This document shows, piece by piece, positions 8,571 to 32,335 of a stretch of DNA of 32,335 nt. The DNA comes from a virus, in IMG/VR virus record IMGVR_UViG_3300028823_000248, positions 1 through 32,335 of that record. One strand, 5' to 3'. How positions within the stretch are numbered: the first letter of the stretch is position 1; every line of letters starts with the position of its first letter. Under the pieces are notes generated by a model, which did not search any database, was not told where the DNA came from, and saw nothing but the letters and a program-made list of their open reading frames with translations. The translations under genes were made by a program, and so were the position numbers.

Positions 8571-9752
8571 TTAATGTACGGAATATTTACCCGAACCAGA
8601 ATATTTTCTTTTATAGATCACCACGCCACGAATGGCATCAATACTGTGGTTCCAACTATCGTTCGGCTTGTTCAAAAATTCGCCATGATGGTCGGTGGCA
8701 TAACTGTAATTTCTTAATTCCTTGATCAAATTGATACTGTCCTTCGTGACCTTCATTTTTAGTTGCTTCATCAATCCGATCCCGAAATTGACCGAATCCG
8801 GCCCCTTCAATGATCCCACTATTTTTACACTTTGTCGGCGTATTTCTTCGATTGATTTAGGTTCTGAACTGTCGGCAATGACCAATTCCCTGTCTTGGTT
8901 CAATTTCAACAATTCATTGGATAATTCATCATTCGTCATCCCTGTTTTATATAAATGTTCCCGCACCCATAAGGTTCCATCCTGGTATCTCACTTCGACA
9001 ATACTGCTTGGATCAATTGTGAAACCGAAATCCAATCCATAAGCTTTCCATTGGTAAATTTCTTTTCCTTTTTCATCGGTGGGGAAATCATCCACAAGTT
9101 CCCAGGCTTCACCCTGCTTGAAAATGAGGCCCTGAACCGTTCCATACTGCCCAAGGACATAAACACGGTAGAAATCGGGATCACGCAAAGCCCTCATCTC
9201 AAGCGTCCGAACAATTTCGCTATCCAAATATGGATTATCCTTGTAGGTGGAATGGATCATGGCGCAGTCGGATCGTTGTTCGAGGTCGGTTGCCCAAAAT
9301 GGTGAAATAGGGTTCCAAGTCAGTAGTATTTTCCTGCGGGTTCGTATTTCCACCTGATCAAATATGGTTTTTTTGATATTGTAGGCTTCATCGAATAAGG
9401 AATAATCCTGCCGTGGCCCATGAAAACGTCCCGGATCGTCTGCGGGAATGAATTGCATAATGGCGCCCGTATCAAAATAATAGGTCAAATCGACCCGGTT
9501 GAATTGTGCCGGGTTGTAGAATTCCTGCATGACGAATATCTGCCAATCACGGATCACGGAACGCTTCAAAACGGGAATGGATTCACCAATGACTGAAATA
9601 ATAGGCTTACTGAAATCATTCATACAGATAAGGGTCAGGTATTGCAATGCGGATATGGTTTTTGATGAACCCGAACCGCCCCATAAGGCAATGATGCGCT
9701 TATTATTATTTTTTCTGATGTTCCTCAGAACATTGGTCGGACGTAGTATCAT
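8571..9752 (-). CDS. terL: Terminase large subunit
   Basis: A 393-residue terminase motor. The ATPase half has Walker A GGSGSSKT (residues 25-32), Walker B SLFDEA (118-123) and a coupling motif LLTWNPIS. The C-terminal RNase H-like nuclease half shows the acidic positions GLDFGFTIDP (near 240), VIADSSEP (near 285) and NHSIDAIRG (near 370). It cuts and pumps phage DNA into proheads. The pattern is closest to the PBSX/Terminase_3 group. It follows the small terminase by about 100 bases, with a small overlapping frame between them. Confidence 0.95.
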   Translation of the reverse strand: MILRPTNVLRNIRKNNNKRIIALWGGSGSSKTISALQYLTLICMNDFSKPIISVIGESIPVLKRSVIRDWQIFVMQEFYNPAQFNRVDLTYYFDTGAIMQFIPADDPGRFHGPRQDYSLFDEAYNIKKTIFDQVEIRTRRKILLTWNPISPFWATDLEQRSDCAMIHSTYKDNPYLDSEIVRTLEMRALRDPDFYRVYVLGQYGTVQGLIFKQGEAWELVDDFPTDEKGKEIYQWKAYGLDFGFTIDPSSIVEVRYQDGTLWVREHLYKTGMTNDELSNELLKLNQDRELVIADSSEPKSIEEIRRQSVKIVGSLKGPDSVNFGIGLMKQLKMKVTKDSINLIKELRNYSYATDHHGEFLNKPNDSWNHSIDAIRGVVIYKRKYSGSGKYSVH

Positions 9753-9912
9753 TCAAGAATACATTTTTAAACGATTCAATGGCAGTTTTGGCATCGAAAT
9801 ATTTACGGCTATAAACGGCATGGCATTGTTCACGACCACCCCGGATGACCTCAAATATCTGAATCGTCTGCGGTGTCAATTTCACCCGATATTTGAATTT
9901 TTGCTTCTTCAT
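9706..9912 (-). CDS. Possible small gene bridging small and large terminase
   Basis: A 68-codon frame starting MKKQKFKYRVKLTP that overlaps the 3' end of the small terminase by 62 bases and the 5' end of the large terminase by 47. The composition is protein-like (alternating basic and hydrophobic residues, one run FEVIRGGREQCHAVYS), and the 98-base space between the terminase genes would otherwise be empty. Overlaps this large are unusual for this genome, where most are 1-20 bases. I give it even odds. Confidence 0.4.
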   Translation of the reverse strand: MKKQKFKYRVKLTPQTIQIFEVIRGGREQCHAVYSRKYFDAKTAIESFKNVFLNDTTSDQCSEEHQKK

Positions 9913-10318
9913 CAATGATATCCTGAACCAGTTCGGCATCTTCGGAATCCTGAACCACTATCTGCGGTTGTGCAAATTGGTGGATGGCGGATATTTGCTG
10001 TTTCGGTTTTCCTTCAATGCGGTCAAATATGAATTCCGTGGCACGGATATCCCCGCCAACGGCTTTTTTTATCGCCGCAAGAATGACCACATCCAATTTT
10101 GGCAATAGTATCCTTCCAATTTTGAATACCCGCCCCGTTGGATTCCCATTTTCATCCGTTTCCTGAATGTTTTCAATGGTCAAATAACCTTCACTATCGA
10201 CCAATTCACGCAATCGCTTCGTGAGACCTTTCATCCCGGCAGGTCGTCCGGTTGGATTTCTGATTTCACCTTTTTTTATGGGTTTCAATCCGGAAGTATC
10301 AGGGTTTGGGTTTGCCAT
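9851..10318 (-). CDS. terS: Terminase small subunit (DUF5681-like N-terminus)
   Basis: A 155-residue protein beginning with the DUF5681-type motif IRNPTGRPAGMKGLTKRLRE, typical of small terminase or packaging-associated proteins, then a helical body and an acidic C-terminal tail (QISGEIDTADDSDI). Small terminases recognise the packaging start site and hand DNA to the large subunit. The start codon overlaps the stop of the glycosyltransferase gene by one base (TAATG), and the large terminase follows, which supports the call. Confidence 0.75.
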   Translation of the reverse strand: MANPNPDTSGLKPIKKGEIRNPTGRPAGMKGLTKRLRELVDSEGYLTIENIQETDENGNPTGRVFKIGRILLPKLDVVILAAIKKAVGGDIRATEFIFDRIEGKPKQQISAIHQFAQPQIVVQDSEDAELVQDIIDEEAKIQISGEIDTADDSDI

Positions 10319-11643
10319 TATCTGATGAATTTTTCTTGGCGAATATCATATGAGAATCCCAATTGATTCAATAATACGGATATTTTTTGCATCGGCATTG
10401 CCTGAGTTCCGAATTCCTTCGTTGCAATAACCATCGCATCATGGAACCCGATTGATTTCTTGGAATTGAATGAATTCAAGATCCGGTTCTGTTTCGGTTG
10501 ATCTTTCATTTTGTCTATCAAATCACCATAATCCATATACAATGATTCAAATTGATTCGCAAGATATTCACAATGGTTTTCCAATTTAAGTCTTTTCGTA
10601 TCATGCTTGTATGTCCTTATATTTTCATCCAGGCATCTGAGCATCATTGAATGCTGTTGTTCCTCATTATCAAATAAAAAAGGGTAACTATCTCCCAAAA
10701 GTTCGGGAAAAGTTACCCCATTGGGTGCTATAATCACATGGTCGTGGAACATGGATTCCGCAATTGAAATGCAATAGGTTTCATGCCGGGAGTTCGTGAC
10801 ATTGGCGTGGCATCGGGATAATTCACGAAGGTAGTCGTTGTGATCATTCAATTCTTTCACGATGACAAATGGATATTTCATCACCCGGGAAACCTTTTCA
10901 TTGTTGCCGGTTATCACCACCCGAAAATTGCGACCTTCAATATGCAACCGCTCGAACATGGCAAAAGTATCCATATAATTTTTGTAACCGTCAAGACGAT
11001 GGTTGTATATGAAAGTGAACTCATCATATTTTTTCTCATTGAAGCGTGTATCACAATAACCGCCGAGGTGAACGTGAGAATTCTTTTCGAGTTGCGCCAT
11101 CAATTCGGTGGATAGGATTTTTTTCGCTTCATGCATCAGCATATCGTAACAATGTTGCGTATGGAAATAATTAAAATCCACGTAGCATGAACTGATCACC
11201 TGAAGGTTTCGTATATGAATCCGGGGAAGGTATTGGGATGCGGTTTCAAGGCTGTCGTGAATGACATAATGGTGATAATTGAATATTTTGTGGCGCACGT
11301 ATTCCACGATATTGTCGGAAGTATATTTGAGATTCATGCCTTGCTCGGTGACATTGTTCCAGATTATTTGAATGGGATATTTCCTGAATATCTCATGAAA
11401 CAATAAAGGGTTGAAGTATATCACCTGTTTTGCTTTGCCCTTCGGCATCGGAATGAAAAGATATTTCACGTTTGGGATCATGGATCGTGGATGCGGTTTT
11501 CTATTCTGATCCAGTATGTAGAAAAAATTGAAGCGGTCTTTCAGCCTTGCGACTATTTTATTGATCAATACAAAATTGGAATCCAGATTGATATTGTCCA
11601 CCGAAAACATCGGATAAATCAATATGTTTATTTTCGGTTTCAT
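10318..11643 (-). CDS. GT-B fold glycosyltransferase with C-terminal extension
   Basis: A 441-residue protein. The start at 11643 gives a four-base ATGA overlap with the ParB-like gene and is chosen over an upstream ATG. The N-terminal half has Rossmann-type strands (KINILIYPMFSVDN, VKYLFIPMP). The C-terminal half has the family 4 glycosyltransferase pattern: FIYNHRLDGYKNY, FRVVITGN, then SRHETYCISIAE, where the two Glu seven residues apart contact the nucleotide sugar, and ELLGDSYPF. The last 60 residues (ISVLLNQLGFSYDIRQEKF) look like an extra winged-helix-type segment. Likely targets are phage DNA or virion proteins; no base-hydroxylating enzyme is present to prepare DNA. It sits between a ParB-like gene and terminase. 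Confidence 0.75.
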   Translation of the reverse strand: MKPKINILIYPMFSVDNINLDSNFVLINKIVARLKDRFNFFYILDQNRKPHPRSMIPNVKYLFIPMPKGKAKQVIYFNPLLFHEIFRKYPIQIIWNNVTEQGMNLKYTSDNIVEYVRHKIFNYHHYVIHDSLETASQYLPRIHIRNLQVISSCYVDFNYFHTQHCYDMLMHEAKKILSTELMAQLEKNSHVHLGGYCDTRFNEKKYDEFTFIYNHRLDGYKNYMDTFAMFERLHIEGRNFRVVITGNNEKVSRVMKYPFVIVKELNDHNDYLRELSRCHANVTNSRHETYCISIAESMFHDHVIIAPNGVTFPELLGDSYPFLFDNEEQQHSMMLRCLDENIRTYKHDTKRLKLENHCEYLANQFESLYMDYGDLIDKMKDQPKQNRILNSFNSKKSIGFHDAMVIATKEFGTQAMPMQKISVLLNQLGFSYDIRQEKFIR

Positions 11644-12200
11644 TTCACACGGAATTGGATTTCGTGTTTCAGGCAAATTTTCTGCAATTCATCAATGGTG
11701 GATTTCTTTGCTTCCGGCACCATGGCAATGAATAATTGATCTGTTTCGGCATATTCGCCATCGCCTATCATTTCTTCGGTTGTGAATTCATCAATGTTCC
11801 GGAAATTCAGTTCTTCAGGCTGAAATCCGAACTGCATCAATATTTCGCTGTCAAATTGCGTTGCAATGGTTTCCAGATTGAAATGCGAAAGGTCGGTTGC
11901 CTTGTTGTCCACCACCGCCAAAAGATTGCGTTTTGGATCATCCGTTTTCAGGTCGGTTCTTTTCACGGCAATCAATTCGCTTCCATCCGATTCGATGACC
12001 TTCACTTTCAACCCGAGTTTTTGCGCCTGTTCATATACCCCGTTCCCTGCAATAATGACATTTTCGCCGTCAATGAGTATGGAACGTCCTGCACCAAAAT
12101 CCGCCAGTGACTTTTCAATGACCTGTTGGTTCAGTTCATCATGGATTCTTGCATTGTTCGGATCAGTGGTGATTTGATCCATTTTTTCTGTCTGTTTCAT
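11640..12200 (-). CDS. ParB/sulfiredoxin-fold protein
   Basis: A 186-residue protein with a ParB-type N-terminal domain: ITTDPNNARIHDELNQQVIE, then SLADFGAGRSILIDGENVII, the loop AGNGVYEQAQKLG in place of the GxxR box of chromosomal ParB, and LLAVVDNKATDLSHFNLE. This is the short phage-type ParB domain often found beside terminases and DNA methyltransferases. The missing Arg in the GxGxxxxA loop suggests it is not a classical CTP-switch partition protein. It starts the late operon and is joined by a four-base overlap to the glycosyltransferase. A role in DNA recognition or modification is inference. Confidence 0.75.
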   Translation of the reverse strand: MKQTEKMDQITTDPNNARIHDELNQQVIEKSLADFGAGRSILIDGENVIIAGNGVYEQAQKLGLKVKVIESDGSELIAVKRTDLKTDDPKRNLLAVVDNKATDLSHFNLETIATQFDSEILMQFGFQPEELNFRNIDEFTTEEMIGDGEYAETDQLFIAMVPEAKKSTIDELQKICLKHEIQFRVK

Positions 12201-22832: not shown

Positions 22833-23005
22833 TTTTCTATTTTTATGATTCGTTTTTCGTGATCTTCGACCTTTTTTTGAAGGTCACAAATGTCTTTTTC
22901 CTGATTCTCCTGCTGCCGCTTAAAAAAATATGCGATCAGCGATAGCAGGAATATTATAATGCCATTGAAGATAGTAATTAAAAATGTATTCAGGTTTGCT
23001 TCCAT
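22829..23005 (-). CDS. Small membrane-anchored coiled-coil protein, 58 aa
   Basis: ATG at 23005 overlaps the stop of the upstream fibre gene by one base; the TGA overlaps the ATG of the next gene. Residues 7-28 are a membrane span (TFLITIFNGIIIFLLSLIAY) and residues 29-58 a charged coiled coil (QENQEKDICDLQKKVEDHEK). The layout resembles holin-associated or XhlA-like proteins, though XhlA has the opposite order. Likely the first gene of the lysis cassette. Confidence 0.65.
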   Translation of the reverse strand: MEANLNTFLITIFNGIIIFLLSLIAYFFKRQQENQEKDICDLQKKVEDHEKRIIKIEK

Positions 23006-24021
23006 TATTGGTCGGTTTCAATATATACCCTCTGCATACGGATGTTTCTGGCTACGGCATTGACCGATTGCACCTGAAATCCGCAACGCATCAAAACAGT
23101 ATTAGTCGGAAGGTTCAACGTGACTTCCCCTTCTGCCGTTGTTCCGGCTGTTATATCATCTATCCTCCAGTATATCTTATTTGATCCAACCGGATATGTG
23201 AATGAATAAAAGTCATAAACATGCTGAGAAATAAACGGCAATCCGGTGTCCACCCGGTTTTGTGTCGTGCCGTCCCGGGTAGAAAAGAACCAGTTCGTAT
23301 CCTGTGTAGCACCGTTTACGTGAAGTCTGTGGAATCCTGCCCTGTTCCCTGCCGGGTTGTCTGCCCCCACGCTTACAGCCATAGTCTGGTCGGTCATGCC
23401 CACGAATATCCGTGATCCAGTGGATGCGCCCGATTCATTGTAACTTGAGTCAGGAAATCCCAGGCGCATGAATGAAAACCACCCGTTAGACCCGATCACC
23501 GTTCCACGCAAAAAGTTCAGGTTTGCATTTCCCGTCCCGGCTGTTGCCGTTGCCGTTCCCGCCGTAACAAAGTTGGCCATGCGCCCATACAACTCCGTAA
23601 CTGTAGGATGCGAGATCGTTCCAACACTTGTGACCGAATCACCAATACTGGAGATCGTGGTGGTGGTGTTGGTGTTAATCATATAGACGTTATTCTGGAA
23701 GAAGGCCGGTTGGATTGGAACGGACAATCCACTCGCCCCCTGTATTTTTAGCATCATCCTTCCGGAGATCGCCTTTGCGTACAGGTTCAGCTTCCCGGAG
23801 GCCGGTGCCGAAGGATCAGATTGCCCTTCAAACAGCATTATCGTTGCATTATCTACCTGACGAAGTGCGTTATACGCCAAACTGTTCCATGCCGTTGAAC
23901 CGTTGCCTATCTTATACAGCCATGTATCAGTTTCTATGCCGATCTCACCGATTGCCAGTACTGGATTGGCCGCTACCCATTCTGCGGCGGTGCCACGCTT
24001 GAGTTGAATTACTACAGACAT
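23005..24021 (-). CDS. Tail fibre with Mtd-like N-terminal domain
   Basis: A 338-residue protein. Residues 1-55 match the phage fibre N-terminal repeat: IQLKRGTAAEWVAANPVLAI, GEIGIETDTWLYKIGNGSTA, WNSLAYNAL, as in Mtd/hyaluronidase-type fibres that attach to the baseplate. The rest is beta-rich with Ser/Thr/Gly/Asn loops, ending in a strand-rich tip (RNIRMQRVYIETDQ), the likely receptor-binding part. No C-type lectin variable motif and no reverse transcriptase are present, so this is not a diversity-generating target. Sampled lines in this block are near 50% GC, above the replication region. Confidence 0.75.
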   Translation of the reverse strand: MSVVIQLKRGTAAEWVAANPVLAIGEIGIETDTWLYKIGNGSTAWNSLAYNALRQVDNATIMLFEGQSDPSAPASGKLNLYAKAISGRMMLKIQGASGLSVPIQPAFFQNNVYMINTNTTTTISSIGDSVTSVGTISHPTVTELYGRMANFVTAGTATATAGTGNANLNFLRGTVIGSNGWFSFMRLGFPDSSYNESGASTGSRIFVGMTDQTMAVSVGADNPAGNRAGFHRLHVNGATQDTNWFFSTRDGTTQNRVDTGLPFISQHVYDFYSFTYPVGSNKIYWRIDDITAGTTAEGEVTLNLPTNTVLMRCGFQVQSVNAVARNIRMQRVYIETDQ

Positions 24022-31621: not shown

Positions 31622-32335
31622 TTAACCCTGCCCTTTTTTCCGTTCGGCAATTTTCTCCTTCAGCGTTTTGAACTCGTGGACTTTCGTTTCGGGATTCCTG
31701 CGGATCGGATCGGCACCGGGTTTTTTGAACTCGGCACGGAATGTTTCAAGTTTTTCTTCCGTGAATTGTTCCTGAGCCGCCTTGAACTGGGTCATGAATT
31801 CATCCAAAAGGGCGGTAACGGCATCAAGGATTTCGTCTTTGTCAATCGCATCCTTTTCCATCTCTTCGGCTTCGGGTTCGGTTATTTCACCTACAACCCC
31901 TTCTTCAGCGCATACGAGTATCCGTCCGTCTGCCAGTACATATTCTCCGGTCGGCAATGGAACCATTTCCCCGTCCATTTCGAGAAATGCGGGGGTTCCG
32001 GGGGCAAGTTCTTCGCCTTCGTAATTGATCACGACTGCGGTTTCATCGGCTCGGTTGGTTGCTTCTACAGTAGCAAACTTTTCCGGGCCGGATGTCGGTT
32101 GAAAGATCGTCTTAATTTTCTCGGCGACCACTTCAGCAAGTTTGTCAAAATCCATTTGGTTAGAATTTTTAATTAATTGATTAGCGAAAACCCCCTCTAC
32201 ACTAAAACCGGTGACCTGTTTATTGACCACCCGTTCCCAAATGTCGGGGTTGTTTACCTTCATCGAAATGATCCAACTACCTTTGGGATAAGAAAACCCA
32301 TATACGGTGGACTTATCACGTTCCGGGTCTTCCAC
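31622..32335 (-). CDS. Prohead protease / scaffold, C-terminal part (joins 1-501)
   Basis: C-terminal part of the 356-residue protein whose first part is at 1-501; bases 32192-32335 are the repeated overlap. Just after the FSVEG motif comes FANQLIKNSNQMDFDKLAEV, then a Pro/Glu-rich region, and a long acidic coiled coil (EILDAVTALLDEFMTQFKAA) ending in basic residues (KTLKEKIAERKKGQG). The acidic, helical C-terminus looks like a scaffold fused to the protease, as in many XkdF-type proteins, and would be cut away during head maturation. The major capsid gene follows after 38 bases. Confidence 0.85.
   Translation of the reverse strand: MEDPERDKSTVYGFSYPKGSWIISMKVNNPDIWERVVNKQVTGFSVEGVFANQLIKNSNQMDFDKLAEVVAEKIKTIFQPTSGPEKFATVEATNRADETAVVINYEGEELAPGTPAFLEMDGEMVPLPTGEYVLADGRILVCAEEGVVGEITEPEAEEMEKDAIDKDEILDAVTALLDEFMTQFKAAQEQFTEEKLETFRAEFKKPGADPIRRNPETKVHEFKTLKEKIAERKKGQG
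32192..32335. repeat. Terminal direct repeat, right copy (circular overlap)
   Basis: Identical to 1-144. Merging the copies gives a 32,191-bp circle with an unbroken protease gene. See the left copy. Confidence 0.95.

Follow-up and report, generated by a model that had tools for sequence, protein, structure and literature searches.

A ParB-fold protein and a GT4-like glycosyltransferase beside phage terminase genes: a likely DNA-glycosylation cassette in a putative Bacteroidota phage

Why would a phage keep a glycosyltransferase gene between the gene for a ParB-fold protein and its terminase genes? This arrangement is found in virus record IMGVR_UViG_3300028823_000248, whose 32,335 bases were analysed in full and are referred to here as the window. 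As the record carries a terminal repeat of 144 bp, it most likely represents a complete circular phage genome of ~32.2 kb. The closest large terminases among phage isolates (36-37% identity) belong to Bacteroides, Parabacteroides and Phocaeicola phages, and relatives of the ParB-like protein in bacterial genomes are mostly from Bacteroidales, making a gut-type Bacteroidota the probable host. In the reading we consider likely, ParB and the glycosyltransferase (GT) form a phage DNA-glycosylation cassette, with the tail of ParB recruiting the GT. The relevant features of the locus are as follows.

12200-11640, minus strand: ParB-like protein, 186 aa (phrog_620, AF2 model)
11826..12200, minus strand: conserved ParB N-domain, residues 1-125, kept in all relatives
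12021..12050, minus strand: AGNGVYEQAQ, lacking the GxxR arginine at the Box-II position
11643..11825, minus strand: variable tail of ParB (residues 126-186), proposed to dock its specific partner
11643-10318, minus strand: predicted GT-B glycosyltransferase, GT4-like, 441 aa (PF00534 above cut-off; relative of gp97)
10756..10782, minus strand: EX7E catalytic motif ETYCISIAE, GT residues 288-296 (motif)
10318-9851, minus strand: putative small terminase, 155 aa (position plus weak DUF5681 and phrog_26239 matches)
9752-8571, minus strand: large terminase, 393 aa (Terminase_3C E=7e-20, Terminase_3 E=3e-12)

Coordinates and family matches agree with the chain of ParB, GT, small and large terminase described in an earlier note on this DNA. 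The GT gene starts with the ATG at 11643 and overlaps the ParB gene by 4 bp (ATGA) and the putative small terminase gene by 1 bp; the two terminase genes are separated by 98 bp, and a 77-aa ORF (9939-9706) overlapping both of them is probably spurious. The note had taken the overlaps as a sign of coupling. Since 14 of 42 neighbouring gene pairs genome-wide overlap by 1 or 4 bp, however, such overlaps do not by themselves indicate coupling.

The ParB-fold assignment was borne out by matches to phrog_620 (E=4e-17) and phrog_498 (ParB-DNA methyltransferase; E=6e-16) and by an AlphaFold (AF2) model with a pLDDT of 86, in which all blocks up to residue 130 except the first exceeded 90. Within residues 1-106, this model is similar to sulfiredoxin and to the N-domains of ParB proteins, ParB structures reaching a modest VIA Z of at most 6.2 across residues 3-76, and viral ParB/sulfiredoxin proteins were likewise similar. 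Foldseek comparison with the PDB gave only hits with E > 0.1, and PDB sequence searches returned no match for either the ParB-like protein or the GT. Helix-turn-helix (HTH) and dimerisation domains were not recognised in the 186-aa protein, of which the N-domain alone was matched; this domain is 56% identical to that of one relative (L006). At Box II, the sequence GNGV stands where the GxxR phosphate motif, as defined in PMC12704722, would be expected. The missing arginine pointed out in the earlier note is thus real, but rather than being peculiar to this protein it is common to the whole ParB subfamily, whose loci were partly retrieved by this very motif. Arg39, invariant in the subfamily, sits in the Box-I loop region. 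Because an Arg-to-Ala exchange in the GxxR motif of characterised ParB-fold proteins abolishes nucleotide binding (PMC12704722), the replacement by GNGV suggests that nucleotide switching may have been lost in the subfamily. A canonical ParB function in partition (ParABS, CTP clamp) was rejected, given the missing HTH and GxxR motif and a ParA that profile searches did not recognise within the window.

Assignment of the second gene product to the family 4-like glycosyltransferases also stands: it scores 27.4 bits against PF00534 (Glycos_transf_1; cut-off 26.4, E=2.9e-6) and contains an EX7E motif (E288-E296), the second glutamate of which is invariant in the family and the first kept in six of eight members. 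PF00534 and PF13692 were its only Pfam matches, the profile of the TET-associated glycosyltransferases (TAGT, PF20691) not being among them, and a single-sequence AF2 model of the predicted two-Rossmann GT-B fold reached a pLDDT of 33. Among 50,697 phage records, the GT had a single match (E=3e-8), the gp97 protein of Arthrobacter phage DanielleIgnace, which aligns over half the protein at 20% identity and whose gene overlaps a ParB gene. The gp97 family extends over 17 phage records, and all 17 also hold the ParB family of Stenotrophomonas phage DLP3, itself present in 27 phage records in all. As in the window, a GT-B enzyme is encoded beside a ParB-fold protein in DLP3 and in Rhodobacter, Rhizobium, Agrobacterium and Arthrobacter phages. 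In DLP3 and the other proteobacterial phages the pair also lies next to the terminase (GT, ParB, a small gene and terminase, in this order, in Stenotrophomonas, Agrobacterium, Rhodobacter and Rhizobium phages), while in the Arthrobacter phages the GT gene lies close to the ParB gene with no terminase shown. As the closest phage relatives of the GT always have a ParB gene, usually beside the terminase, the GT appears to belong with ParB.

These relatives are distant, sharing 13-18% identity with the window GT, and DLP3-type phages differ from the window in having the GT upstream of ParB, a ParB of another subfamily with a GHHR-type motif, and extra sugar-nucleotide genes, which lie near several of the gp97-family GTs. 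No sugar-nucleotide genes were recognised in the window, so its GT would need a sugar donor from the host. Close GT relatives were found neither in viral contigs searched with peptide patterns, nor in 198 genomes from the Dysgonomonas order, nor in plasmids. An alignment of the GT family proved too divergent for pattern searches.

The company kept by the ParB protein itself bears on what the GT might act on. Profile searches yielded 126 viral and 42 genomic ParB relatives; 80 viral loci were kept, and removal of near-duplicates left 93 loci. In ~80 of these 93, ParB is fused to, or encoded directly upstream of, a DNA-modification-type enzyme. Partners comprise methyltransferases (28 in one cluster, plus other methylase types), TAGT (20), Mom-like (9), radical SAM (5), DpdA-like (4) and QueD-like (3) proteins and a few singletons; another 12 loci are unclassified, of which at least five lie at the end of a contig. 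Profiles confirmed representatives of the TAGT (PF20691), Mom (PF25680) and N6/N4 methylase (PF01555) partners and, weakly, of the radical SAM partner, the remaining classes being assigned by sequence clustering and inspection. One locus (L026) encodes DpdA together with QueC, QueD, QueE and FolE, all profile-confirmed. A large terminase follows within 6 kb downstream of ParB in 69 of the 81 loci with enough sequence.

Sequence comparison therefore supports this ParB family as the mark of a terminase-adjacent slot occupied by DNA-modification enzymes, and the window fits the layout, with a ParB of the subfamily directly upstream of an enzyme and the terminase downstream. Since the family marks such a slot, the GT most likely acts on DNA. 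The link between glycosylation and DNA proposed in the earlier note is thereby strengthened, on grounds of the slot and of the ParB genes accompanying the GT relatives. The arrangement of ParB, enzyme and terminase is conserved; a single orthologous gene pair, the form of conservation that the note had suggested looking for, is not. The outcome named there as refuting, two genes not conserved together, did not arise in this sense. A GT4-type enzyme is absent from all other loci of this exact ParB subfamily, which, like the distance of the GT relatives, speaks against the cassette reading. More generally, a ParB gene next to the terminase may serve as a marker for finding unknown DNA modifications.

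How can one ParB family accommodate so many enzymes? Partner labels mapped onto the N-domain tree required at least 36 changes, a count to be read with a short and partly unresolved tree in mind. Some exchanges can be seen directly. Loci L015 and L017 are 95% identical over 6.3 kb, ending at about ParB codon 116. Identity returns, at 96%, over a 4.7-kb stretch that includes the terminase genes; between these flanks they carry different ParB tails and different enzymes, namely a C5-methyltransferase and a Mom protein. The pairs L101/L104 and L107/L104 show the same swap boundary; L104 and L107 represent Parabacteroides prophages with Mom and C5-methyltransferase partners that are nearly isogenic in the surroundings of the cassette. 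Across 43 loci, with neighbours restricted to those with divergent N-domains, the nearest tail gave the correct partner class in 37 cases, against a mean of 11.7 under permutation (none of 2000 permutations as high), whereas the nearest N-domain did so in 10, which is chance level. The N-domain therefore appears to be generic and the tail to belong with the enzyme, from which we infer that the tail docks the partner enzyme. The window's own tail had no clear match among known tails.

Alternatively, tail and enzyme might travel together merely because the conserved ParB and terminase sequences act as recombination arms, the tail having no docking role. The swap boundary does coincide with the end of the conserved N-domain, as homologous recombination would produce. 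Yet the tail predicts the enzyme class across divergent loci where the N-domain does not, and many partners are fused directly to the N-domain, so that we regard this explanation as rather doubtful. The boundary and the tail-partner match also favour a partner-specific adaptor over the unexpected chemistry by ParB that the earlier note had entertained, and the naturally occurring exchanges of enzymes offer a direct way to test the adaptor hypothesis.

If ParB recruits the GT, which target would it be recruited to? GT4-like enzymes mostly act on glycans, and the substrate could be a protein of the virion or, for superinfection exclusion, a glycan on the host surface, with the position in the operon being due to chance. 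Lipopolysaccharide has indeed been proposed as the target of the DLP3 relative (PMC7326821), and the sugar-nucleotide genes of DLP3-type phages fit surface glycans as well. However, nearly all classified relatives hold DNA-modification-type enzymes in the slot, and a ParB gene was present in every phage record with this GT family, which makes a target other than DNA unlikely. DNA of DLP3 resisted all 15 of 15 restriction enzymes (PMC7326821). The same authors tied the DLP3 ParB genes to the phagemid state, and together with the ParB fold this could speak for a plasmid-type partition protein that maintains the prophage as an episome and is unrelated to the GT. Its length of 186 aa, the three missing elements named above and the fusion of relatives to methyltransferases argue against this, and we consider such a role very improbable.

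With DNA as the preferred target, the nature of the acceptor base becomes the central question. In agreement with the earlier note, no base-hydroxylating enzyme of known type is encoded: profiles for TET/JBP oxygenases (PF12851) and thymidylate-synthase-type hydroxymethylases (PF00303) detected nothing in the seemingly complete window. They were equally negative in 15 further, mostly partial virus records of the group, a complete TAGT-bearing Porphyromonas phage and six GT-B/ParB phages. As positive controls, PF12851 was recovered in Nonlabens phage P12024L (E=3e-29) and the PF00303 family in phiAS5. The ParB loci thus bring together phage lineages that have a DNA-type glycosyltransferase and lack any known supply of acceptor bases.

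Methyltransferases, Mom and DpdA belong to families acting on unmodified DNA bases. As these are among the other partners of this ParB family, direct glycosylation is plausible as well, and we tentatively propose that the ParB-recruited GT, as one of many tail-coupled interchangeable enzymes, might place a sugar directly on a canonical DNA base without prior hydroxylation. A somewhat stronger case, though still short of probable, can be made for a GT acting on hydroxylated bases that stem from the host, from a co-resident element or from an unrecognised enzyme family, in the manner of T-even or TET-type systems. To our knowledge, all characterised phage DNA glycosyltransferases use hydroxymethylated pyrimidines, and TAGT, the commonest GT in the slot, lies elsewhere beside TET and a methyltransferase, as in Nonlabens phage P12024L. 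In addition, two Bacteroides-type genomes with ParB-TAGT prophages contain short thymidylate-synthase-like genes (E 9e-20 and 5e-17), albeit on contigs other than that of the prophage. The negative profile searches weigh against hydroxylated acceptors.

Taken as a mechanism, the ParB N-domain would serve as the generic phage-side platform, probably located on phage DNA or the replication/packaging complex, to which the variable tail would bring the modifying enzyme. The GT, a retaining GT4-like enzyme, would then move a sugar from a host nucleotide-sugar onto phage DNA bases, presumably late in infection and ahead of packaging, and the sugar could block restriction and other DNA-targeting defences.

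Several known systems share parts of this design. TAGT, e.g. of phage P12024L, is likewise a phage DNA glycosyltransferase, but belongs to a GT-A type family that the window GT does not match, and its TET companion in P12024L was not found in the window. T-even glucosylation of hydroxymethylcytosine (hmC) features an encoded dCMP hydroxymethylase of the thymidylate-synthase family, the profile missing here. A parallel within the slot is offered by the phage ParB-DNA methyltransferase fusions (phrog_498), already described in PMC12704722 (Kaljevic et al. 2025) and PMC12783734, which have the same ParB fold and the same position beside the terminase and include close relatives of the window N-domain; in contrast to these, the window enzyme is GT4-like and encoded by a separate, overlapping gene. 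The text of PMC12704722 names neither a glycosyltransferase nor a terminase. ParBc-domain proteins also occur in the gene contexts of the CmoX carboxymethylcytosine pathway, which differs from the window in relying on an AMP-forming ligase and a carboxymethyl group derived from SAM; a GT was not found in the text of PMC12783734. That paper states the function of these proteins in DNA modification to be unknown, and a widespread phage ParB family hereby gains a functional hypothesis. Our literature search, from which key subscription papers were missing, returned no paper on the interchangeable slot, on the match between tail and enzyme or on ParB-linked DNA-modifying GTs. Related gene neighbourhoods were reportedly described by Iyer et al. 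in 2013, likely for the first time. ParB and GT genes are already present in some phage annotations.

Among loci with relatives of the window's ParB protein, radical-SAM proteins serve as the ParB partner, i.e. the enzyme fused to ParB or encoded directly downstream, at five loci (L011, L029, L032, L070 and L119). Profile searches returned a weak match to PF04055 and a match to phrog_13321, a family of unknown function; these partners are candidate DNA modification enzymes of unassigned type. At L068, L071, L073, L118, L120 and L121, the gene directly downstream of a ParB–methyltransferase fusion was identified by eye as S-adenosylmethionine synthetase-like, and at L129 a following gene, also judged by eye, as S-adenosylmethionine decarboxylase-like. 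These neighbouring genes hint at a non-methyl, SAM-derived hypermodification at these loci.

Two Mom-like genes, both assigned by eye, follow ParB in tandem in phage locus L003 (4519–6512), with the small and large terminase genes downstream; the large terminase of this phage shares 34% identity with that of the window. The 307-aa ParB partner of L085 (6543–7466) had no match in Pfam or PHROG, and its N-terminal start resembles T4 beta-glucosyltransferase, as judged by eye only.

Genes for an epimerase, aminotransferase, PIG-L deacetylase or WbqC-like protein lie near the glycosyltransferase–ParB pair in L155 and L157 (upstream of the glycosyltransferase) and also in L161, suggesting that these phages produce their own amino sugar donor. 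Two Bacteroides-type genomes (L149:7753–9299 and L148:2594–4223) carry, on contigs other than that of the ParB–glycosyltransferase prophage, a thymidylate-synthase-like gene that is short, at about 230 aa, and precedes a Dam-like one; the former could encode a nucleotide hydroxymethylase on a mobile element.

Other features of the window comprised:

1–144 and 32192–32335, exact terminal repeat of 144 bp
23005–24021, major tropism determinant N-terminal domain protein (PF18454, E=4e-15)

The repeat represents either a real terminal repeat or the assembly overlap of a circular genome, and the 23005–24021 product is probably a receptor-binding tail protein.
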